This document shows, in pieces, positions 11,543 to 28,202 of a stretch of DNA of 30,195 bases (within the stretch, counting starts at the first letter, position 1; each line of letters starts with the position of its first letter). A program made the position numbers and the translations under genes. This DNA is from a virus. The stretch is from the IMG/VR virus record IMGVR_UViG_3300045972_000788, positions 1 to 30,195 of that record. The stretch is one strand, 5' to 3'. The notes beneath the pieces were generated by a model. It had not been told where the DNA came from. It did not search any database and saw nothing but the letters and a program-made list of their open reading frames with translations.

Positions 11543-13519
11543 TTACTGGTTCGTAAAGTTGTGGTTGGTCGAGGTTGTGGTTCCGTTGTTCGTGCTCGTG
11601 TTGGTGCTGGTGCGTGGATCGGTCGCCGACAGGTCCGTCGAGTACGACGATGCAAGCGCGGCACTGACGCTGCCCGAGAACGAGTTCGAGATGCTGCCCG
11701 ACAGATTTACCGACGACAAAGCGGACGCCGCCATCTGGGCCGATACCTGCGCCCCGCTCTTGGCCGCTTCAATCAGCAGGCTCATTTTCTGCACCAGCTT
11801 GTCGATGTTTGCCTTGGCCACGTCGATGCGCACCCCAGCCGACGCTTGGAGGTACTGCACCTCGGACCGGTACGCCTCAGCCTCGGCGCCCATCCGCCCC
11901 GTCTGGCCCTGCACCTGTGCTGCGTACAGCTGGGTCTGCTTGCCGAAGATATCAGCCACCGCGCCAACGCGGCTGGCTTCAGCCGAGACTTGCGTGCGGT
12001 AGATTTCGGTGCGGGCCTTGAACAGATCGAGTGGCACGTCGCGGCCCAGCTTGATCTCCATGTTCTTGGCTGCGACCTTGGCGTCGACCAGCGACTTGAA
12101 GCCATCGACCTGGCCACGGTACGCATCGGTCTGGGCCTTGTAGACCTCGACCTTCGATACCTCGGCGCGCACGTTGGTGGCGTAGCCCTCGTACTCAGCG
12201 GCTTTGGCGCGCACCGTCTCGGCGTAGGCACCGACCTGTGCAGCGAACGAGTCGATCTGCAGCTTGTTGATACCGGCCTGTGCGTTCACGGCCTCGACTT
12301 GCGCGCGGAAGATGTCGACCACAGCGCGCGCGGCAGTCACTTGGGTAGCGTAAATCTGCGCGTTCTGCTCGTTCAACGTCCCGATCAGTTTCTGCCCTTC
12401 CAGGTCGGAGCGGTATTTCTCCAGCTTGGTCAGCTCGGCCTGGATCGCAGCCTTCCACTGATCCACCTTGGCCGAGTACGCCTGCACGTCGGCAGCGTAC
12501 CGGGAGATGGCTTGCTGCGCGATGTCGATGCCGACCTGCTGCGCGTACTTCGCGCTGTCGAATGCCCGCTGCGCGATCTGGTTGTTGTAGGTGATCAGCT
12601 CGGCCTCGACCTTGAACGCTTCGCCAAACGCGAACTTGCGGTTCTCGATCTCCATCTCGGCCTGCTTGATCATCACGTCGCGGGACAACGCACTGTTAGC
12701 GTCTTGCGCACCCTGCGCGGCGTCCTGCAGCTCGACCGACAACATGCCCGGTGGCTTGGCGAAGCCACGCTGGGCGAACGAGCGGATCGCCTCAAGTCCT
12801 TTGCGCATTGAGTTCGTGGTCTCACGCGAGCGGCCCCGGTCCCAGATGGCCTGCTCGACGGCTGGGGCCAGCCCAGTCGATGCGCCGGTGATCCAGGCAT
12901 CGAGCTGGGTGCGCAAGTCCGTCAGCAGAGATGATGTGTAGTTCGTGTCGGCGAAGCTGAAGATGTACTGCGCGGCCAGCGGCGAGTTCGGTGCAACGGC
13001 AGTGAACGTCGGCAGCGCCAGCAGTGGCGAGGTCGGCACCGAGATGCCCAGCAGCGTCGGCACAGTTGGCAGCGTCACGGTCGGGGCCGACGGCACGGTC
13101 AGGTTGGGCAGCGTCGGGGCGGTCGGCAGCGTGGCTACCAGAGCGGCTGGCGAGGACGGCAGCGTGACCACCGGCAGAGCGGCCGTGAATGTCGGGACGG
13201 TACCGGCATCAAACGCAGTAATCGCGTCGAAGGTCGGTGCGGTCGGCGCGGTCTGGGCGGCGAACACCAGATCAGTCGGCGCTGATGGTGAGGTCGGGGC
13301 CACGAAGGCTCCGATTGTCTTCGACGTTGCGGCCAGCGCGTCGGTCAGCACCGGCAGGGTCGAGAGCGCCGTGGCCTGAGTCTGGATGCCGGCCAGGAAC
13401 GTGTTGGCGTTTGTTACGGCGGTTGAGGCGTACCCCTGCGCGTTGTCCCACCCGCTCTGGACAAGACTGCCGGCGTTATTTGTCGGGACGGAAAAGGCTA
13501 CTGGTGATGGGCTGGGCAT
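11543..13519 (-). CDS. Tail protein with Pro-rich neck and long helical rod (658 aa)
   Basis: Virion-type protein of three parts. Residues about 75-185 are a Pro/Thr/Val-rich repetitive segment with recurring PTAPT and LPTVPT-like units. Residues about 205-610 form a very long helical region with a recurring pattern of Tyr/Phe, Gln-Val and Ala (for example AAQVGAYAETVRAK) that suggests a coiled-coil rod. The last 45 residues are Ser/Thr/Asn-rich. I recall similar proteins only as unnamed phage tail or structural proteins. Start ATG 13519 is supported by the AAGGAG site six bases upstream. It follows two tail-protein genes and precedes the ejection genes, consistent with a tail tip, needle or internal rod. 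No enzymatic motif is seen. Confidence 0.75.
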   Translation of the reverse strand: MPSPSPVAFSVPTNNAGSLVQSGWDNAQGYASTAVTNANTFLAGIQTQATALSTLPVLTDALAATSKTIGAFVAPTSPSAPTDLVFAAQTAPTAPTFDAITAFDAGTVPTFTAALPVVTLPSSPAALVATLPTAPTLPNLTVPSAPTVTLPTVPTLLGISVPTSPLLALPTFTAVAPNSPLAAQYIFSFADTNYTSSLLTDLRTQLDAWITGASTGLAPAVEQAIWDRGRSRETTNSMRKGLEAIRSFAQRGFAKPPGMLSVELQDAAQGAQDANSALSRDVMIKQAEMEIENRKFAFGEAFKVEAELITYNNQIAQRAFDSAKYAQQVGIDIAQQAISRYAADVQAYSAKVDQWKAAIQAELTKLEKYRSDLEGQKLIGTLNEQNAQIYATQVTAARAVVDIFRAQVEAVNAQAGINKLQIDSFAAQVGAYAETVRAKAAEYEGYATNVRAEVSKVEVYKAQTDAYRGQVDGFKSLVDAKVAAKNMEIKLGRDVPLDLFKARTEIYRTQVSAEASRVGAVADIFGKQTQLYAAQVQGQTGRMGAEAEAYRSEVQYLQASAGVRIDVAKANIDKLVQKMSLLIEAAKSGAQVSAQMAASALSSVNLSGSISNSFSGSVSAALASSYSTDLSATDPRTSTNTSTNNGTTTSTNHNFTNQ

Positions 13520-18518: not shown

Positions 18519-18931
18519 GCTGAGGCCGCGTTGAAGGCGCTGCGCACAGCTGGAGGCGCTGCGATGACCATCGCGCGGTACGCCGCAATCACCGCGTTCT
18601 TCAAGCCGTCCGCATCGGTCGCCGCCAGAACGCCGGCGTCTTTGGTGATGTCCAGCAGCGCCTTGCGCGCGGCAATGACGCCATTGACCGTCACTGTGTC
18701 GCCAGCCACCATCGCCGCGAAACCGATGCCGGAAATCCGGTTCAATATGTCCTCGCGGGTCAGCCGCACGGTGTCGAGGTAGGCAGTACGGATCGGGCCG
18801 AACGGCGGCACATCGGCGGGTTCCGGCGTGTTGCCCTCTGCGATCCAGTCTGCGATGGCCGAGACAAGGCACGACTCGTTCTCACGAAACACGACCGTGT
18901 TCGTCGCATCGGTAAATTTCCAGTTGCTCAT
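18515..18931 (-). CDS. Tail-fibre-associated protein, 138 aa (assembly-chaperone-like)
   Basis: Soluble protein directly downstream of the tail fibre gene. The N-terminal motif WKFTDATNTVVFRENES, followed by IADWIAEGNTPEPAD, is typical of small proteins next to phage tail fibres, where they are often annotated as fibre assembly proteins or left unnamed. The second half (residues about 63-138) is helical and Ala-rich. ATG 18931 overlaps the fibre stop (ATGA), and the preferred start discards a 36-codon upstream extension inside the fibre gene. A chaperone role is inferred from position only. Confidence 0.7.
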   Translation of the reverse strand: MSNWKFTDATNTVVFRENESCLVSAIADWIAEGNTPEPADVPPFGPIRTAYLDTVRLTREDILNRISGIGFAAMVAGDTVTVNGVIAARKALLDITKDAGVLAATDADGLKNAVIAAYRAMVIAAPPAVRSAFNAASA

Positions 18932-20343
18932 AGCTCGCACCCTGTCCCAAAGATTGTTGAGGGCGTACCGCTGGTAGCCAGCTGTGTAACATTCCCGGCG
19001 ACCAGTCCAGCCGCTGCAACAGGCTGCACAGTCATACAATCAACTGAGGATGGCAGAATAGTCAGACCCCCCGAGCCTGTAAGCGCACCATTGTTTTGTG
19101 TGACTTGAAAATTAGAAGATGTCACGGACACGCCAGTTGGCGGCACCCGCGTTTTGACCCGCATCGGCAGACCAATCACTACGACCGATGTGCTATACGC
19201 CATGCCAGCGTATGTGCCTGAAACACCGGCAACAGTCCAAGAAGGCAAATACCTTTCGCAGAGGGCTTGTTCAACTTGTATGGGCCGCTGCTCGAAAGGG
19301 GTCGCTGATGAGCCGAGTTCGAGCTGCACTTGGGAGATGGACGCCGTAGCTCCGTTTATAGCGACCACAGAAACTGCTCCCGTAGCCCCGACAAAATTCC
19401 CGACCTGCCAAGAGCCTGCTGCTCCTGAAAAATTGGCCCCCGAACCTAAGTTAAACCGCAGAAGAAGCCCTGCGCCCGTATCGGTCAACCACGTCCCTGA
19501 TGTGTCGCCCGGTATTGTCACGGATATTTTTGTCGGCGTATTTGCGGCCGCGATGTTGTACGTAAAGGGGTACGACCTCGTTCCGGCCGAATTCACCACC
19601 GCCCCGGAATGTGTACCGACCACACTTGATTGAGCCGTAAACGAAATTGTGATTGGTTTAGCTGCGGCGGTCCCAAAGTTAAGATCTTGGACGTTTAGCC
19701 CTTCGATCGCTTGAAAAAATCCAAAGGTGTCCGCCGCTATCACGGCGTAGGCAGAAAGGCTAACGGCATTTAACCAGTTACTAAAACCTAATCCGGCCGC
19801 CGCGGCGATCTGCTGCATCGAATACTTAGACGATTGCGTACAGACCGATGAAAACCGATCGCAGGCGTAAAATGATGCGCTACTGAGAGGGATCACCGCA
19901 GCCCCCTTATTTCTCTGGTCGATCCGCATATCCCCGTTGATGATCCGATTGCGGAAGCCTGCAAGCTGACCACCGTTGAGTGAGTCAACCACAGGCGAAG
20001 TCAGGACCGCGCCTGCCTTCGGCGCGAGCGACGCAAGCGTGCCGGCAGTCATGCGCAGGGAGACCGAGGTACCGACGCCCCACGCTGCAGCAGCGGTGGT
20101 GCCCTCTTGCCCGCGCACCACGGTCAACGTGTCGGAGGAGCGCGCGGTCACGTTGACGATCTCCCAGGAGTTTTCCGCGCCGTTCACGTCCCGGCCGATC
20201 AGGGTCAGGGTGAAAAAGTCGCCACCGGTCGGTGATGGGAACGAAGCGCCCTGCCCTGCCTGCAGGACCAGCGAGGTCGTCAGTGCAGAGGCAATGGCGA
20301 CCGACAGCGTCCCGGTCGCGTTGTTCTTGAAGAGCTGCGTCAT
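18928..20343 (-). CDS. Tail fibre / receptor-binding protein with carbohydrate-binding-like module (471 aa)
   Basis: Residues 1-110 look like a virion-anchoring domain (MTQLFKNNATGTLS at the start, then TLTVVRGQEGTTAAAAW), common at the base of proteobacterial phage fibres. From residue 131 a module begins with RNRIINGDMRIDQRN and closes with ISQVQLELGSSATPFEQRP and ALCERYLPSW; this is a frequent jelly-roll/CBM-like fibre module. The rest is beta-rich. Base composition changes sharply: a 60-base line at 20041 counts about 72% GC, but one at 19081 about 45%. The distal part therefore looks recently acquired. The TAA of the preceding gene directly abuts this ATG, with AAGGA upstream. Confidence 0.85.
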   Translation of the reverse strand: MTQLFKNNATGTLSVAIASALTTSLVLQAGQGASFPSPTGGDFFTLTLIGRDVNGAENSWEIVNVTARSSDTLTVVRGQEGTTAAAAWGVGTSVSLRMTAGTLASLAPKAGAVLTSPVVDSLNGGQLAGFRNRIINGDMRIDQRNKGAAVIPLSSASFYACDRFSSVCTQSSKYSMQQIAAAAGLGFSNWLNAVSLSAYAVIAADTFGFFQAIEGLNVQDLNFGTAAAKPITISFTAQSSVVGTHSGAVVNSAGTRSYPFTYNIAAANTPTKISVTIPGDTSGTWLTDTGAGLLLRFNLGSGANFSGAAGSWQVGNFVGATGAVSVVAINGATASISQVQLELGSSATPFEQRPIQVEQALCERYLPSWTVAGVSGTYAGMAYSTSVVVIGLPMRVKTRVPPTGVSVTSSNFQVTQNNGALTGSGGLTILPSSVDCMTVQPVAAAGLVAGNVTQLATSGTPSTIFGTGCEL

Positions 20344-20625
20344 TTAGAGTTCCTTTACCTTGATCGTCACTTCGTCTTCCAGAATCCGGCCGTCCTCAGT
20401 CGTGACCCGGAAAGTGACCTTGTACGTCGTCCCCGTCACACCGCCGCTGGCGGCGAAGCGCACACGCGGGTCGACGACGAAAATGTTGCTGATGACCAGC
20501 CCCGTCGGTGCCACGGACAGCATCGTCGCGGTCAGCACGTTGTCGCCGACGGTCAAGTCATCCTCGTAGGTGATCGTGTATGTCTCGGTCTCACCCGGCT
20601 GTTTGGTGACTTGTCCTAATCTCAC
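20344..20625 (-). CDS. Small beta-rich fibre-tail adaptor-like protein (93 aa)
   Basis: Small, probably Ig-like beta-sandwich protein: KQPGETETYTITYEDDLTVGDNV near the start, GVTGTTYKVTFRVTTEDGRILEDEVTIKVKEL at the end (the latter span is residues 62-93). Such proteins lie between fibre adaptor and fibre genes in many phages. The start is a GTG at 20625 with AGGAGA at good spacing; its GTGA overlaps the previous stop. A structural adaptor role is inferred from the neighbours. Confidence 0.7.
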   Translation of the reverse strand: MRLGQVTKQPGETETYTITYEDDLTVGDNVLTATMLSVAPTGLVISNIFVVDPRVRFAASGGVTGTTYKVTFRVTTEDGRILEDEVTIKVKEL

Positions 20626-22061
20626 GCTGCTCTCCTGAAAGTTCGTTCGGTGTAGAGGCGGCGCAGTTCGCGGTCCTCGAAGCGGCGGCGCAGGGTTCGT
20701 TCGTCGGGGTCGTACGCTTCGGCGTTGGAGCGCATCTCCGCGCTGATGTCAGCGCTGCCACCGACCGCCGCCGCTACCATCCGCAGCACAGTCGCCGATG
20801 CCTGCACCGACGCGCCACCGCTCACTGCTGCCGGAGCGATGCGGAAGATCTGGCCGATCGACACCACGTTCGCCGAGCCTGCAAATACAACACCGGTGGT
20901 CTGGACGGCACCGCCGTTTGCTGTGAATGTCCCTGATCCGCCAAGGGGCACCGAAGCCATACGTAGAACCGAGGTCGACGCATCGAGCGTGGCCGACCCG
21001 GCGACGGCCGCGCCGTTCGTCTGGTTGAGTACCCCAGTTGCCGCAAGCGTCGCCCCGCCGCCGACAGCTGCGCTGCCTGGCTGTGACGCCAGCACGCCTG
21101 AGTCCAGTACCGACAGACCTGCCGCCGCGCTCACGGCCGCATAGGCTGTGGTCGTGAGCGTCGGGAACGGCAGAATCGTCGCGGTTCCCCGAACGTCGCA
21201 TGCCAGGGCGAAGCCTTGGAGCGCCAGCGCCTGCACCGCCGCGGCACCGGTGATCAACGCTGATGCGTTCACGGTGCGCAAGCCGATGGCCACGACGTTC
21301 GCGGTCCCCGACATCGTCTGGGCGGAAGTGACGACCGAGCTGGTAATGTCGGCAGTCACTGCTGCTGCGGCCGAGACTGTAGCGCCGATTTGGCTGATCG
21401 TCGCGGGGCTTGCCGTGGCCGCACCGGTTGCCAGGATTGTTGCCTGCGCCATCGAGAATGAGATCCCGGTGGCCGGCGTGCTGAGTGAAGCCGTGCCGAG
21501 AAAATCGACAAAGCCGTCGAGGGCGTTGTTGACCTTCGCCTCGGTACGGAAATTCGCCGCACCCGCCACGCTCGCCGCCACATACCGGGTAACGAGCGCG
21601 GTTGCTGTAGCCGTTGCTGTACACACGTCGGTCGAAGCCGACGCTGCCAAAACCTTGGTCGCCGCCGCGACGAACGAAGCACCGCCCGCTGCTGCTGAAT
21701 TTGCGAGCGTGGACGCCGGGATCGGGATAAACGACGCTTTACCGGCGAAGTCAGCCGTTGCCAGGATCGTGCGCAGCACGAACGAGACGATGTTCGCGTT
21801 ACCTGCGACGGCAGCAGCGCCGGCTTGATTGTGTGCCGGAATTGCCTGAAGATTGACGCCGCCAGCCACGCTCGCCGCGACATACGCGGTGAGCAGCTGA
21901 AGCGCGGTTGCTGTGGCCGTACCGGATACCGCAGCGCCCGCGAGGACGATGCGTGTAGCGGCCGGTGAAGCGTTTGCGCCACCAGATACGTTCGCCGACG
22001 CGGGGATAACCGACAGCGAACTGCCGTTTAGCGCATCACCGTTTAGGGCGAACGTATCCAT
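20622..22061 (-). CDS. Ala-rich repeat protein with charged ERT tail, probable fibre shaft/adaptor (479 aa)
   Basis: Almost the whole protein (residues about 15-440) consists of some 20 degenerate repeats of about 18-23 residues. The consensus is roughly A-A-x-V-x-G-x-A-(T/N)-(V/L/F)-x-A followed by a variable hydrophobic part, for example SAAVGGGATLAAT and AAAVAGNANIVSF. The alternating pattern suggests beta-strands, perhaps a beta-solenoid. The last 37 residues are sharply different: acidic/basic, with DPDERTLRRRFEDRELRRLY. ERT repeats of this kind occur at the ends of phage tail-associated proteins. It precedes the adaptor and fibre genes, so it may form a fibre stalk. No catalytic motif seen. 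Confidence 0.75.
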   Translation of the reverse strand: MDTFALNGDALNGSSLSVIPASANVSGGANASPAATRIVLAGAAVSGTATATALQLLTAYVAASVAGGVNLQAIPAHNQAGAAAVAGNANIVSFVLRTILATADFAGKASFIPIPASTLANSAAAGGASFVAAATKVLAASASTDVCTATATATALVTRYVAASVAGAANFRTEAKVNNALDGFVDFLGTASLSTPATGISFSMAQATILATGAATASPATISQIGATVSAAAAVTADITSSVVTSAQTMSGTANVVAIGLRTVNASALITGAAAVQALALQGFALACDVRGTATILPFPTLTTTAYAAVSAAAGLSVLDSGVLASQPGSAAVGGGATLAATGVLNQTNGAAVAGSATLDASTSVLRMASVPLGGSGTFTANGGAVQTTGVVFAGSANVVSIGQIFRIAPAAVSGGASVQASATVLRMVAAAVGGSADISAEMRSNAEAYDPDERTLRRRFEDRELRRLYTERTFRRAA

Positions 22062-22070
22062 TGCGACCTA

Positions 22071-22499
22071 TTAGTCGACGGTGACGGTCAGCGTACCGAT
22101 ACCGAACGACAGCACGTCGCCGATCTGCAGGGTCTTGGCCGAAGTCAGCGGCGCGGCGTACAGCAAGTTGCCGCCCGTCGCTGCGTCGTAGATACCGACG
22201 TGAGTCGCGGTGATCGCAGCCGCCCCGTTGTTGGCCGGGAAGGTGACGACCTTGGCGTTCGAGCTGACGCCGTTGGCAGGAGCTGCCCAGCCGGTGTCGA
22301 TGGTGCCGGCGCCGGCTGCGTTCTGGCGAACGTAGGCTGGCAAGTTGGCGACCTTGAACTCATTGGCCGTGATGTTGGCGTCAGTTGGGTCAGCGGTGAA
22401 CAGAGCGATGTAAATCGCGCTTGCCACCGGAAAGGCCACGCCGCGCAATGTCGACTGGATGATGTTGGTTTCGGTGTAATCCGAGAAGTTATTGGGCAT
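22071..22499 (-). CDS. Phage tail-fibre-like structural protein, gp80-type (142 aa)
   Basis: The sequence follows a common small phage tail protein pattern: FSDYTETNIIQSTLRG at the start, IYIALFTADPTDA near residue 29, NLPAYVRQNA near 52, VTFPANNG near 86, THVGIYDAATGGNLL near 99 and GDVLSFGIGTLTV at the end. These are usually annotated as tail fibre or virion structural proteins. Start ATG 22499 has GGAG at suitable spacing. It lies between the adaptor region and the repeat protein, so it probably belongs to the tail or fibre attachment. The exact location in the virion is not known from sequence. Confidence 0.75.
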   Translation of the reverse strand: MPNNFSDYTETNIIQSTLRGVAFPVASAIYIALFTADPTDANITANEFKVANLPAYVRQNAAGAGTIDTGWAAPANGVSSNAKVVTFPANNGAAAITATHVGIYDAATGGNLLYAAPLTSAKTLQIGDVLSFGIGTLTVTVD

Positions 22500-22515: not shown

Positions 22516-22956
22516 TTAGGCTGACTGCGTTACATTCCAGGTGATCCGCATCGAATCCCCTGAACCTTTTTGCTGCGCAGCGAACACGACGCGGTTGAGC
22601 ATCGTGCCGCCGCTCACGGCATTGAAAATTCCTGCTTCGGCAACTGTCCCGGTGGCGGCGCCGGGGCCGAAGTCCGCCACGTACTTGACCGTCGGGCCAG
22701 TCGGCGTGATCGAGGTGAGTGCAACCCGGCCCAGCTCGGCACCGATGATCTGGTCGCCAGCCTGGGCAGCGCCGGTGTAGCTGCCGACCGCCATGTGACT
22801 CATCGCCGCTGGCTGGCCGACCATACGAGCGGCCTGCCAGGCGAGGCCGGTGTCGACCACGATGTTCGGCACGGTCTGGTCGAAGTAGCGGCCGTCCTCG
22901 CACATCAGCTCGATGCGGACAGACCCTTTGCTCTTCACGGTGTCAGAGACCGCCAT
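22516..22956 (-). CDS. Putative virion structural protein (146 aa)
   Basis: Beta-rich protein of the same general kind as the next gene (PVKYVADFGPGAATGTV-like strands, AEAGIFNA, then GGTMLNRVVFA), and possibly a distant relative: both have an AG/VGI-(F/Y) element followed by Gly-rich GGxML/GGNLL. The start ATG 22956 lies 14 bases inside the preceding adaptor gene. The neighbours are a head-tail adaptor and a gp80-like tail protein, so a tail or neck role is likely. I do not recognise a named family. Confidence 0.65.
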   Translation of the reverse strand: MAVSDTVKSKGSVRIELMCEDGRYFDQTVPNIVVDTGLAWQAARMVGQPAAMSHMAVGSYTGAAQAGDQIIGAELGRVALTSITPTGPTVKYVADFGPGAATGTVAEAGIFNAVSGGTMLNRVVFAAQQKGSGDSMRITWNVTQSA

Positions 22957-23596
22957 ACGACACCACTCGGGTCTTGTGTCGCGCGCGGTCCGTTTCGGCT
23001 TTCGCTGCCGCGCAGTAGGCGCGGAATTGGCTTTCTTTCAACTGGGCTCTGCCCTCGTTCTTTGTGTCTGCATCCTGCTTGGCGAAGGCCAGCGAGGCCA
23101 TCCAGAGCATCAGGTGCCGGTGGTGCTGCTCGTCGATTTCGAGCGCCGAGCTGCGCGCTGGGGTGATCGTCGTCAGCGGCAAGCGCTCGACAACCATCGA
23201 CGCCGAGTCGGCCAGCGCCGGCACATAAAGCCAGCGCACGGTGTGTGCTTCCATGCCGATGACAGCCTTGGAGACGAGTCCGACGGTCCCGTCGAGCCTG
23301 ACCTGCGCCCGGTCGAGGTCTTCGATATTCAGTACGTCGATCGGCTTGGCGTCGGAGTTGCGCTGCATCCGGGTGATGCGCAGGATGCGCGGGTCGAGCG
23401 CTGCGAACGGCTCACCGACTTCAATGTCGATGGAGGTGAGGTCCGAGGTCGCGTCGCGGATGCCGCCGACGAGCCGGCAGAACATCTTTTGCGCGTCGTC
23501 CATGTAGCCGACGATCTCGGCGTCCGACCAGAAGTACGGGGCGACTACGTCGTCCACGTCGGCACGGAACAGAGCAAGAAGGTCGGCGCTTTTCAC
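22943..23596 (-). CDS. Head-to-tail adaptor / tail accessory protein (217 aa)
   Basis: Helical N-terminus of a form common in podovirus and siphovirus neck adaptors: MKSADLLALFRADVDD, FWSDAEIVGYMDDAQKMFC, then a beta segment (SIDIEVGEP, LRITRMQRNSD) and a helical end (LMLWMASLAFAKQDADT). It is similar in layout to phage head-tail adaptor proteins such as P22 gp4-like and DUF6682-type proteins. The start is GTG at 23596, directly after the upstream TAA, with AAGG about ten bases upstream. Placement between capsid and tail genes supports a connector role. Confidence 0.75.
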   Translation of the reverse strand: MKSADLLALFRADVDDVVAPYFWSDAEIVGYMDDAQKMFCRLVGGIRDATSDLTSIDIEVGEPFAALDPRILRITRMQRNSDAKPIDVLNIEDLDRAQVRLDGTVGLVSKAVIGMEAHTVRWLYVPALADSASMVVERLPLTTITPARSSALEIDEQHHRHLMLWMASLAFAKQDADTKNEGRAQLKESQFRAYCAAAKAETDRARHKTRVVSYGGL

Positions 23597-24875: not shown

Positions 24876-25988
24876 TTATTTCGTTGCGCAGTAGACCGAC
24901 AGAACGCCGAAGTCTTCGACGGAGCCGTTCTCGTAGATCGAGCCGAACTTTGGCTTCAGGAAGCCGAGGATTTTTCCGCACGAGATACCTTGTTGGTTCT
25001 CGTAGTCGAAATTCTTCTCTTCCCACTCAGGGGCGCCGATGTCTGCCATGCCGAGCGCTTGAGCGCCGCAGAACAGGATCTGGACGCCGTCCACGGTACC
25101 GACTGCGCCGTACTTCGAGCCCGACAGAGCGCCGATGGTGTTCGGCACGTGGCGGAACTCGTGCAGGTAGATGCCGTCGATCTTGACCGAGCTGCCGGTG
25201 AACAAGGAGCTGTTCTTGTCGGCACTTTGCGAGTGACGCAAGTTCAACAGGTAGGTCGGATCAAGCTTCAGGTTCGCCATCGCCGTCGGGGTCAGGAAAG
25301 CGTGGTAAGTCTCTTCGCCGCCTTCCATCACGCCGCGTACATAGCGGTCTTTCGCAGCGGCTTTCAGCGCCACGAACATTTCCCAGGCGACGGTGTCGGT
25401 CGCGGTAACGGCGTTCGACGCAGCAGCAGGGATCAGCGCCTTGCCGGTGTTGTCCCAGCGGAAGCGACGGCCGTTCGATGGCGCGGTCACATCGGCGTTG
25501 AACTCCAGGAACGGCAGGTCGGAGCCGACGCGGGTCGAGCCGTTTGGCTTCTTGCTGTAGCTGATACCGGCCAGCGTCAGGAACGCCATCTGGTCGATAC
25601 GGTCAGCGAGCCAGTAGGACAGGACGTTTTTCGAGTTGCCGCGGAATTCGACGACAGACTTCTGGTCAGCCATACGGCCTTCGTGGCGGTTCGCATGACG
25701 CAGTTGGTCGATGCGGATCACCTGGTCGAACGTCTGCATCTGCTCTTCGTTGCCTTCGAGCGTGCGGTCGCCAGCGATACCGTCACCGGTCAAGTCGGCC
25801 AGCAGGGTGATCACGGCGCGTGCGCCCTTCTCGGATTTTTTCAGTTCGGTGATGTGCTGAACCAGTGCGCCTGGGCCGGAGCCGAGGAATTTGCCGATGA
25901 AGGACTGGTTGCGGGCGTTTTTCCACAGGTCGCGGGACCAGATGGTTTTTTGTTCGTTGGTCAGGAGACCGAAGTTTGTCAATGACAT
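24876..25988 (-). CDS. Major capsid protein, N4 gp56 / DUF4043-like (370 aa)
   Basis: Likely the main shell protein with the HK97 fold. It follows the pattern of the N4-gp56/DUF4043 capsid family: WSRDLWKNARNQSFIGKFLG near the N-terminus, HITELKKSEKGA near 45, IRIDQLRHANRHEGRMADQ near 91, LADRIDQMAFLTLAGI near 125, RFRWDNTGKAL near 172, and then YLHEFRHVPNT near 276. Its length (370) fits the family. It lies after a terminator and a 100-base leader and is followed by a probable decoration protein and a strong terminator, as expected for a highly expressed gene. The ribosome site (GGGGT) is surprisingly poor for such an abundant protein. Confidence 0.9.
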   Translation of the reverse strand: MSLTNFGLLTNEQKTIWSRDLWKNARNQSFIGKFLGSGPGALVQHITELKKSEKGARAVITLLADLTGDGIAGDRTLEGNEEQMQTFDQVIRIDQLRHANRHEGRMADQKSVVEFRGNSKNVLSYWLADRIDQMAFLTLAGISYSKKPNGSTRVGSDLPFLEFNADVTAPSNGRRFRWDNTGKALIPAAASNAVTATDTVAWEMFVALKAAAKDRYVRGVMEGGEETYHAFLTPTAMANLKLDPTYLLNLRHSQSADKNSSLFTGSSVKIDGIYLHEFRHVPNTIGALSGSKYGAVGTVDGVQILFCGAQALGMADIGAPEWEEKNFDYENQQGISCGKILGFLKPKFGSIYENGSVEDFGVLSVYCATK

Positions 25989-26167: not shown

Positions 26168-26698
26168 TTATGCCGTCCGAACTGGGACGAGGATAAGCTC
26201 GGGCTGGGAGATCGAGAAGGTCGTCGTCCCCGGCGCTGTCTTTGTGATGGCCGCGCCGATCGAGATCGACAGGCTGTTTCCGCCGCCGTTCGGGATGGTG
26301 AAAGGCGCGGTCTGATACAGCACATCGAAGTTGGTAGTCACGTTCGCCGCCTCTTGGAACGTCGGCGCTAAACCCTGGCTGTTCGGCGACATATGTACAA
26401 ACCCAGACGTGCCCCCCGATACCCGCATAAAAATCCCTGCGCAGTTAGCGAGGCTGGTTGTTTTTACGCGAACCCGGACAACGACCTGCTGGGGCAGCGC
26501 GATTTTTCCTCCGTAACTGAAGTTAATCGGGATCTGGAACCCTACGCCTTGGTTCAGGGTGTACAGGTTGGCCGGGTTATTTGTGTCGATCGCGCACTGC
26601 GCCCAATTCCCCGGCGCGCCGCCACCGGCCAGAAGCGAGGTGTCGAGCGTCGACAGTGCTGCACCAGTTGCCGCGACGATGGAATAAACGGCCGTGGA
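26168..26698 (-). pseudogene. C-terminal part of the SGNH fibre/spike protein, separated by a one-base frameshift
   Basis: This frame continues the SGNH protein (26577-28202) after a shift of one base in a run of five G (26699-26703). Read from 26698 it gives 176 sensible residues that begin STAVYSIVAATGAALSTLD, continue with NPANLYTLNQGVGFQIPINF and end FSISQPELILVPVRTA. By contrast, the upstream frame becomes Arg-rich nonsense after the same point. It has no good start or ribosome site of its own; the first ATG is at 26428. With one G removed the two frames make a single 677-residue protein. It may be a sequencing error, a real mutation or a frameshift-regulated extension. Confidence 0.8.
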
Positions 26699-28202
26699 CC
26701 CCCGCCGCGCCCCAGGATTGCAGACCCGTGGGGATAGTGCCGGTGGCTGGCCCAGTCACAGTGCCTGCCGTGCCAGTCAACATCGCCGTGCCCGCCGTGT
26801 TGTACCCCACAGCAAGGTTGACGCCGGCCGGATACGTGTACGTGTCGTTGCCGTTGCTTGCCAGCCCGTTGTAATTGGCGACGTAGGAGCTTGTGGCGAG
26901 CTTGGATAACGTGCCGTTCCACAATTCATAGCCGAGCGCGCGATTCAACTCGCCTCCGCCATGCACATGCGAGCTGCCGATACTGCCGACCAGCACCGAG
27001 AAACCCGAGCCCGTACCCCCGATTGCAGCTGCGCTACAGGTGAGCGAATCCCCGACGTTATAGAGCCGCCCAACAGAGCCGCCGGACGATGCGCTGACCA
27101 CGACCGAAGTAACCGCACCGCCTGCCACCGTGATGTTCGCGTTCGCCCCAGTGCCAGAACCCCCGGTCATCGGCACGCCGTAATAGGTTCCGTTGGTGTA
27201 GAGCGACCCGGCCGTGATCGCGCCAAAACTCAGGATGCCACCAAGCCCTTGGAACAGAGGCAAGAACGGCCCGCCATTTACGGTATCCGAGGGATCGCTC
27301 ACATAGTTGGCGTAGTCGAACATTCCGAGGCGGTTCGACGCACAGTAGTTACGGACCCACTGATTGTGGATGCCGATCCACTTGTTGTTGAGCTTGTTGA
27401 AGCCGCCGAAATTCGAGTTCTTGGGGCTGATCGTGCAGAGGATCGGCGTTGTGCCAAGCGCCTTTAATTTGCCGATGAGGTTGATGAGGCTGCTCTGGAA
27501 GGAGGCCACGATGCCGGCCGTGTCAACGTCATTCGTCACGCCGGAAATATCGTTGAACCCGATCTGGACAATCGTGATGTCGGGCAGGAACGGCACGTAT
27601 AGCGCGGTCAAATTGTCCAGAATCTGCGAGACCTTGAACCCGCCCTGCGCCCAAACCGCCGTGTAGCGGATCTTCCCCATCGAGTAGGCTGCGGCCCAGT
27701 TCACGAAGTTCGTTGATCCTCCCGCTACCATCGAGGTCACTGGGTTCAAAACAGGCGCTGACAATGTCTGGACGTAGCAGTTGAACCCGGAGCCTGAGTT
27801 ACCGAGAGCGGCGTTGCTCGCGCTAAGGATGCCGCTGATCTGGTAGCCCGCGTTACCCGGCGATACGATTGCGACCGAGGTCACTGCCCCGCCAGCCACC
27901 GTGATGTTTGCCGTCGCGCCGGCGCCTGTGCCTCCCGTCAGCGGTACGTTGCTGTACGTCCCGTTCACGTATCCCGAACCCCCGACGAGGTTGGAGACCG
28001 TTGCCACGCCGCCGTAGGCCCATCCGTCCTGAACGATTGAGTCGCCCAGAATACCGACAGTCAGAGCCGATGCCCCGAACGGAATAACGCCTCCACCACC
28101 CAGCCGCAGCCCAATCTGATTGGCGTAGGGGTCGAGCCCTGGAGTAGCCAGTGGAGCTTGTGGGTCATCCCACGTACCGTCGTTATTCAAGCGTCTTGTC
28201 AT
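26577..28202 (-). CDS. SGNH/GDSL-hydrolase tail spike or fibre protein, N-terminal 501 residues valid (541 aa as read)
   Basis: Probable esterase or deacetylase acting on host surface glycans. Block I is LTVGILGDSIV with nucleophile Ser55, and block III is IVQIGFND with Asn217. A late His (His412 or His414, in SSHVHGGGELNRALGYELWN) fits the catalytic His block, but the usual Asp three residues before it is absent. A 75-residue Gly-rich repeat occurs twice (residues about 70-144 and 328-405), both placed inside the hydrolase fold. After Gly501 the frame becomes implausible; the true continuation is in another frame (26168-26698). The start has GAGG at good spacing. It lies between the scaffold and capsid genes, an unusual place for a receptor-active enzyme. 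Confidence 0.8.
   Translation of the reverse strand: MTRRLNNDGTWDDPQAPLATPGLDPYANQIGLRLGGGGVIPFGASALTVGILGDSIVQDGWAYGGVATVSNLVGGSGYVNGTYSNVPLTGGTGAGATANITVAGGAVTSVAIVSPGNAGYQISGILSASNAALGNSGSGFNCYVQTLSAPVLNPVTSMVAGGSTNFVNWAAAYSMGKIRYTAVWAQGGFKVSQILDNLTALYVPFLPDITIVQIGFNDISGVTNDVDTAGIVASFQSSLINLIGKLKALGTTPILCTISPKNSNFGGFNKLNNKWIGIHNQWVRNYCASNRLGMFDYANYVSDPSDTVNGGPFLPLFQGLGGILSFGAITAGSLYTNGTYYGVPMTGGSGTGANANITVAGGAVTSVVVSASSGGSVGRLYNVGDSLTCSAAAIGGTGSGFSVLVGSIGSSHVHGGGELNRALGYELWNGTLSKLATSSYVANYNGLASNGNDTYTYPAGVNLAVGYNTAGTAMLTGTAGTVTGPATGTIPTGLQSWGAAGVHGRLFHRRGNWCSTVDARHLASGRWRRAGELGAVRDRHK

Follow-up and report, generated by a model that had tools for sequence, protein, structure and literature searches.

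The window, by which we mean the whole stretch of DNA analysed, is a virus record of 30,195 bases. The features of the locus are given below, where the name rope protein anticipates the reading argued for in the text.

20622..22061, minus strand: gene of the putative rope protein, 479 aa plus stop (ORF, third-position GC, synteny)
22005..22061, minus strand: N-terminal module of this protein, residues 1-19, motif LNGDALNG (motif scan of relatives)
20721..22004, minus strand: repeat body, residues 20-447, about 21 units of 20 residues (self-match, unit profile)
20628..20708, minus strand: putative C-terminal anchor, residues 452-478, PDERTLRRR, FEDRELRRL and YTERTFRRA (lag-9 test, profile)
22071..22499, minus strand: gp80-like fibre I bead protein, upstream neighbour (PF23140, E 3.7e-37; PDB 8jou_a, E 8.2e-41, 10 chains)
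20344..20625, minus strand: gp77-like fibre-tail adaptor, downstream and overlapping the rope gene (PF23148, E 2.7e-18; PDB 8jou_D, E 0.0073, 3 chains)
22516..22956, minus strand: second, distant gp80-like protein (PF23140, E 0.0035, 18.1 bits against a cut-off of 27; phrog_5417, E 4.7e-20)
18928..20343, minus strand: tail fibre protein, encoded next behind the adaptor (phrog_4492 tail fiber, E 1e-45; phrog_6427, E 2.2e-33)
24876-25988, minus strand: Phage_capsid_3 major capsid protein
22943-23596, minus strand: SU10-type adaptor

The open frame originally predicted at 20622-22061 was found on the minus strand, and the same interval read on the plus strand is full of stops. The GC content at the third codon position of the gene was 0.71. 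Profile searches of Pfam and PHROGs with the rope protein matched no family, known tail-fibre families included, and tblastn against 50,697 phage records gave no match. These blanks in Pfam, PHROGs and tblastn would suit a non-structural product or a spurious Ala-rich ORF, but such an origin is very improbable and is contradicted by the synteny, the conserved end modules, the one-unit indels and the virion annotation of relatives described below. A first scan of viral contigs by the rope sequence confirmed no close relative, and relatives were reached instead through gp80 and gp77 probes and annotated phage records.

The window matches to PF23140 and PF23148 were both above the curated cut-off, and Pfam names these two families for proteins of podophage GP4, its fibre I protein and its fibre-tail adaptor, respectively. 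The second gp80-like protein, encoded directly upstream of gp80, may cap or tip the fibre. The tail fibre protein at 18928..20343 would be a candidate for fibre II or III. Two further observations were made elsewhere in the window. A weak GDSL/SGNH esterase match (PF13472, E 4.1e-07, just below the cut-off) was found at 26577-28202 on the minus strand; its frame breaks near the C-terminus and protein-like sequence continues in another frame, so the gene may have decayed, undergo a programmed shift or be misassembled. The product of the gene at 11543-13519 on the minus strand (phrog_10969) shows a marked periodicity of 7/14 residues (z 7.8 at lag 14), which suggests a long coiled coil.

The original prediction described about 20 tandem units of 18-23 residues, diverged but regularly spaced, and proposed self-comparison as a check. 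In a composition-preserving test, the rope protein displayed self-match peaks at lag 20 (z 7.7), lag 40 (z 7.2) and lag 60 (z 4.9), and the maximum was reached by none of 1000 shuffles. Two control proteins from the same window were analysed, one without a significant peak and the other with a heptad-like 7/14 period. The diverged, evenly spaced tandem repeats were therefore confirmed, with a sharper periodicity than had been described and a similar copy number of about 21 units. The length of 18-23 residues was dropped because the period is exactly 20, with only rare slips of 1-4 residues.

A 20-residue unit profile was seeded on one relative (L017) and trained on 51 relatives with the window left out. 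It called 17 units in the window protein with a score of 112.5, compared to 4.7 ± 4.1 for shuffles, of which 0 of 200 reached that score. The called units span residues 20-447, equal to 21.4 unit lengths. Positions 2-16 of the profile alternate: the even positions hold A/G, A, I/L/V, G/A, A, L/F/V, A and G/P/A, the odd positions hold S/T/D/N, and the alternation leads into a short R/K/Q-rich turn. In gp77-type relatives, consecutive called units were most often spaced 20 apart (269 cases), with 21 next (28 cases). Pairwise identity among the window units, computed for 21 positions (4 of them below the profile threshold and placed by hand), averaged 23% in protein (maximum 50%) and 40% in DNA (maximum 58%). 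The units are old and diverged, and Tandem Repeats Finder listed no array in the rope gene. Separately, a DG[FY]-type motif is conserved in the middle of the chain, as DGFVDF in the window (residues ~182-187) and DGYVNT in L009; it marks one unit as special across relatives (ropes L009, L010 and L013).

The charged ERT tail of the original prediction was borne out and could be resolved into three units of nine residues. Residues D, E, K and R make up 56% of the last 32 residues of the window rope, compared to 5.6% of its body. For the period analysis, the C-terminal 32 residues were taken from 51 gp77-type proteins, including that of the window, and deduplicated at 60% identity to 35 tails; L014, which is nearly identical to L013, was left out, as were ORFs open at a contig end. 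The pooled lag-9 z was 19.4, none of 2000 shuffles reached it, and lag 9 was the best lag in 31 of the 35 tails. The window tail alone was weaker, with a lag-9 z of 3.2 and a maximum reached by 134 of 5000 shuffles.

The nonapeptide profile has the consensus [PF][ED][DEN]R[TE][MFL]xxP. It found three copies in 30 of the 51 tails, two in 12, one in 6, none in 2 and four in 1; in six of the two-copy tails the copies lie exactly 18 residues apart, so that a diverged copy could fit between them. When 156 control pieces of rope bodies were scanned, 132 had no copy, 23 had one and 1 had two. A looser C-terminal motif was present in at least one copy in 50 of 51 scored gp77-type loci. At the other end, the motif [LIVFMPY][NG]x3[LIFMYV][NG] was found within the first 40 residues of all 51 gp77-type relatives and in 4.4% of shuffles. 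Both end motifs were composed after the sequences had been inspected.

The sample comprised 109 loci with gp80, which gave 86 distinct ORFs as the next gene. Since only the best 80 of 540 confirmed loci entered from the viral gp80 scan, the sample leans to window-like gp80s, and the relatives counted lack phylogenetic independence. The period test excluded ORFs that run off a contig end. L053 and L061 were left out because the longest-ORF rule chose the wrong frame; their alternative frames carry the N-terminal motif by eye.

A repeat gene with the N-terminal motif lay between gp80 and gp77 in all 51 scored loci having both neighbours, and the window rope has this position together with the motif, the 20-residue units and the nonapeptide tail. 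Taken as single genes, 41 of the 51 gp77-type genes had a significant period of 20 or 40 as the top lag, compared to 2 of 469 other ORFs from the same loci, one of these encoding a Gly-rich and the other a Cys-rich protein. The remaining 10 gp77-type genes fell short of significance alone, and L007 and L044 showed no lag-20 signal. As a side observation, the ropes of L069 (4890-7196) and L007 (5424-6761) are broken by non-repeat stretches, of ~100-140 residues in L069, which gave no match in Pfam and are possibly adhesin domains borne along the fibre. In L005 (7408-7917, Agrobacterium phage Atu_ph08), the deposited annotation omits the rope ORF and has a gene on the opposite strand instead.

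At loci without a gp77 match, 19 of 29 complete genes after gp80 retain the 20-residue period, and most of these have different ends, such as an N-terminal FGTLE and a C-terminal WTxxxxGSxTW. Among complete ropes, the exception is L036, whose sequence stops within 90 bases of the rope, so its gp77 may simply be cut off. The other 10 of the 29 complete cases had no evident rope after gp80, and a scan of these ten whole stretches found at most one doubtful ORF of 124 aa (L109), besides the Gly-rich protein. Since the gp77-less loci keep the units but mostly have other ends, the 20-residue units accompany gp80, and the nonapeptides accompany gp77.

This association bears on whether the protein could do without gp80 and build a separate tail-fibre shaft, trimeric or fibrous, in which the charged tail would serve for attachment or form the tip while receptor binding would take place elsewhere. 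The repetitive body of low charge, the charged end and the place among tail genes would fit such a shaft, and the non-repeat inserts of relatives such as L069 could be its adhesin domains. However, the period persists in the gene after gp80 even when gp77 is missing, the tail-fibre families give no match, and three gp77 chains in 8JOU beside three nonapeptides are explained more simply by one rope per three gp77. An independent shaft is accordingly judged improbable.

The number of units differs widely among relatives, from about 5 to 36, and complete ropes range from 170 to 768 aa. Comparing repeat number across related phages, as had been proposed, gave 18 to 36 units per rope for the clade that contains the window, where gp80 identity to the window is 63-68%. 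The gp80s of L009 and L075 are 93% identical and their ropes measure 395 and 375 aa; the alignment shows a single 20-residue insertion beside a similar unit. The overall length range and this one-unit difference bear out the expectation that length could evolve by repeat number, and fibre length appears to change by gain or loss of repeats.

AlphaFold2 was run on the window rope with 13 relatives and on a relative of 170 aa with 9 others. The window model had a mean pLDDT of 45.9 and a pTM of 0.38, with no residue at 90 or above, although repeating strands appeared at residues 250-440 (pLDDT ~53-65). The shorter member had a mean pLDDT of 44.8, a pTM of 0.28 and long strands of ~12-18 residues. 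Foldseek with the window model returned nothing at E <= 0.001, and its weak matches include beta-rich repeats. A confident beta-solenoid fold, coil by coil, was not obtained for the window rope modelled apart from its partners. The low confidence speaks against a robust independent solenoid, but these models decide little because the repeat alignment is unreliable and the partners, which might stabilise a solenoid, are missing.

The continuous beta-solenoid shaft of the original prediction, in which each 20-residue unit would be one coil of a rigid, self-standing stalk bearing gp80 or an adhesin, was not supported by these results and is considered unlikely. A coil would accommodate the exact period of 20 residues and the alternation of small residues, and the modelled strands and the beta-rich repeats among the weak Foldseek matches also speak for it. 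Against it, confidence was low in both the long and the short member, even though AlphaFold2 is reported to over-predict solenoids for perfect repeats (PMC11795689). No structural match passed the threshold, and the period persists through a complete change of composition in WGH49683 of phage Slicko01, described below.

Since it is flanked by homologues of two GP4 fibre I components, gp80 and gp77, the window protein is best read as a rope that links gp80 copies. We estimate a probability of roughly 0.7 that the product of this gene is the rope in a GP4-type fibre I of a short-tailed phage, with units that hold gp80 copies and a tail that docks on gp77. The original prediction of an unusual fibre component is thereby supported as the most likely class, and an architecture that it could not name can probably be placed in a known system.

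In the proposed mechanism, each 20-residue unit, consisting of ~15 residues that alternate small or hydrophobic with polar side chains and then a short R/K/Q turn, would pack on gp80 as a strand in extended conformation, and the chain would thereby thread the gp80 copies together. The C-terminal nonapeptides would dock onto neighbouring collar subunits of gp77, in line with the presence of three gp77 chains in 8JOU, and the N-terminal LNxxxLNG module would form the far end of the fibre. The number of units would set the number of gp80 copies per fibre and hence its length and reach. The gp80 contact and the stoichiometry are inferred. Because natural ropes of about 5, 11, 21 and 36 units exist, the stoichiometry is directly measurable. 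If the reading is true, it provides a simple rule, readable from the sequence, for fibre length and bead number in some phages. The combination of gp80, a period-20 ORF with a nonapeptide tail, and gp77 can serve as an annotation signature for genes now called hypothetical.

The closest structural comparison is fibre I of the Ralstonia podophage GP4 (PDB 8JOU), whose gp80 and gp77 have homologues flanking the window rope gene. In fibre I of GP4, an elongated rope protein reportedly links five dimers of gp80. The deposited structure contains 10 gp80 chains, arranged as strings, and 3 gp77 chains belonging to the collar. Together with five-fold fibres, these numbers would give three gp77 per fibre, which matches three nonapeptides. 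On a rule of one unit per subunit, this phage would carry ~21 gp80 per fibre, twice the ten gp80 chains of 8JOU. A gp80 dimer in GP4 is also mentioned, second-hand, in PMC13243795, and a passage of PMC10925440 compares a 15-subunit collar with that of GP4. The phage records searched contained no record of GP4 or another Gervaisevirus.

The gp80 of GP4 is very close to BcepMigl gp56 (202 bits), and the gp80s of BcepIL02 and GP4 are similarly distant from that of BcepMigl. In these Burkholderia Lessievirus genomes, BcepMigl gp57, BcepIL02 gp56 and JC1 gp54 are syntenic with the window rope, but they are shorter (246, 285 and 291 aa, respectively) and their units are more charged. The BcepIL02-type rope (L054) resembles that of the window in having an N-terminal LNETPING, 20-residue units and a tail of the ENRALRVP type. 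Unlike the window, BcepMigl has a pectin lyase-like gene between the rope and the gp77-like gene. BcepIL02 gp56 and BcepMigl gp57 are annotated as virion-associated, and phrog_19041 (virion structural protein) was matched by 1 of 11 members of relative set A1. In the virion mass-spectrometry table of JC1, gp53 and gp55 are present and the syntenic gp54 is absent. When laid out, the BcepIL02-type rope has about 10-11 units, several of them below threshold, a number that would weakly fit one unit per gp80 subunit.

PDB sequences were also searched with five ropes as queries, including two from Lessievirus phages that are near relatives of GP4, and only chance-level matches were found. The BcepMigl and BcepIL02 ropes align with an E of 3e-41, with large gaps, and a PDB rope equally close to a query should have been found. 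The PDB sequence collection lacks chains of unknown residues, and on the simplest interpretation the rope chain has no sequence assigned to it in PDB. A full-text search of the literature for the rope protein or the adaptor returned no paper on the rope protein.

Rhizobial phages of the PBC5, POI1126 and Atu_ph08 type share with the window the order gp80-rope-gp77, the N-terminal motif and the 20-residue period. Their ropes differ in length (170-280 aa, about 5-10 units) and in having Arg-rich turns.

A more distant comparison is offered by the Alishewanella phage LSH1. A 2026 report describes a module, gp34-gp36, in which a large gp34 lies beside a gp80-like gp35 dimer and an Ig-like protein; it notes a poorly predicted beta-helix-like region in gp34, for a reason unknown to its authors, and names Slicko01 as carrier of a gp34-related protein (PMC13243795). 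Slicko01, a 141-kb Alishewanella myophage, was chosen as an independent test with a 20-residue period expected beforehand. Its protein WGH49683 (L116 7570-13101, minus strand; 1843 aa) displayed a 20-residue period at residues ~1000-1780, with z up to 12.9, and nothing comparable in the first 900 residues. The C-terminal part holds about 39 units of 20 residues, with a register visible by eye in rows of 20. The unit profile of the window family called 1 unit in it, at chance level, and the repeat showed only in the composition-free period test. WGH49683 is unlike the window rope in that a payload domain or domains precede the repeats and the units are rich in N, D, S and F. Its 121-aa neighbour WGH49681 has a weak PF23140 match (E 0.0036, 18.1 bits against a cut-off of 27), and a gp77 HMM built for this analysis detected no homologue in Slicko01. 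From these neighbours we infer that WGH49683 is a relative of LSH1 gp34.

The spacing of 20 residues persists where the sequence has changed, suggesting a constraint of geometry, for example the dimensions of a bound partner. A broader proposal, which we hold tentatively and at somewhat less than even odds, is a linear building code with one 20-residue unit per gp80, one nonapeptide per gp77 and length set by unit duplication. Such a code would be shared by podophages and a large myophage whose unit sequences are unrelated, and would identify the GP4 rope gene, which is seemingly unassigned in PDB. If true, the reading would provide a gene for the GP4 fibre I rope and account for the region of LSH1 gp34 that the authors of that report do not understand (PMC13243795).
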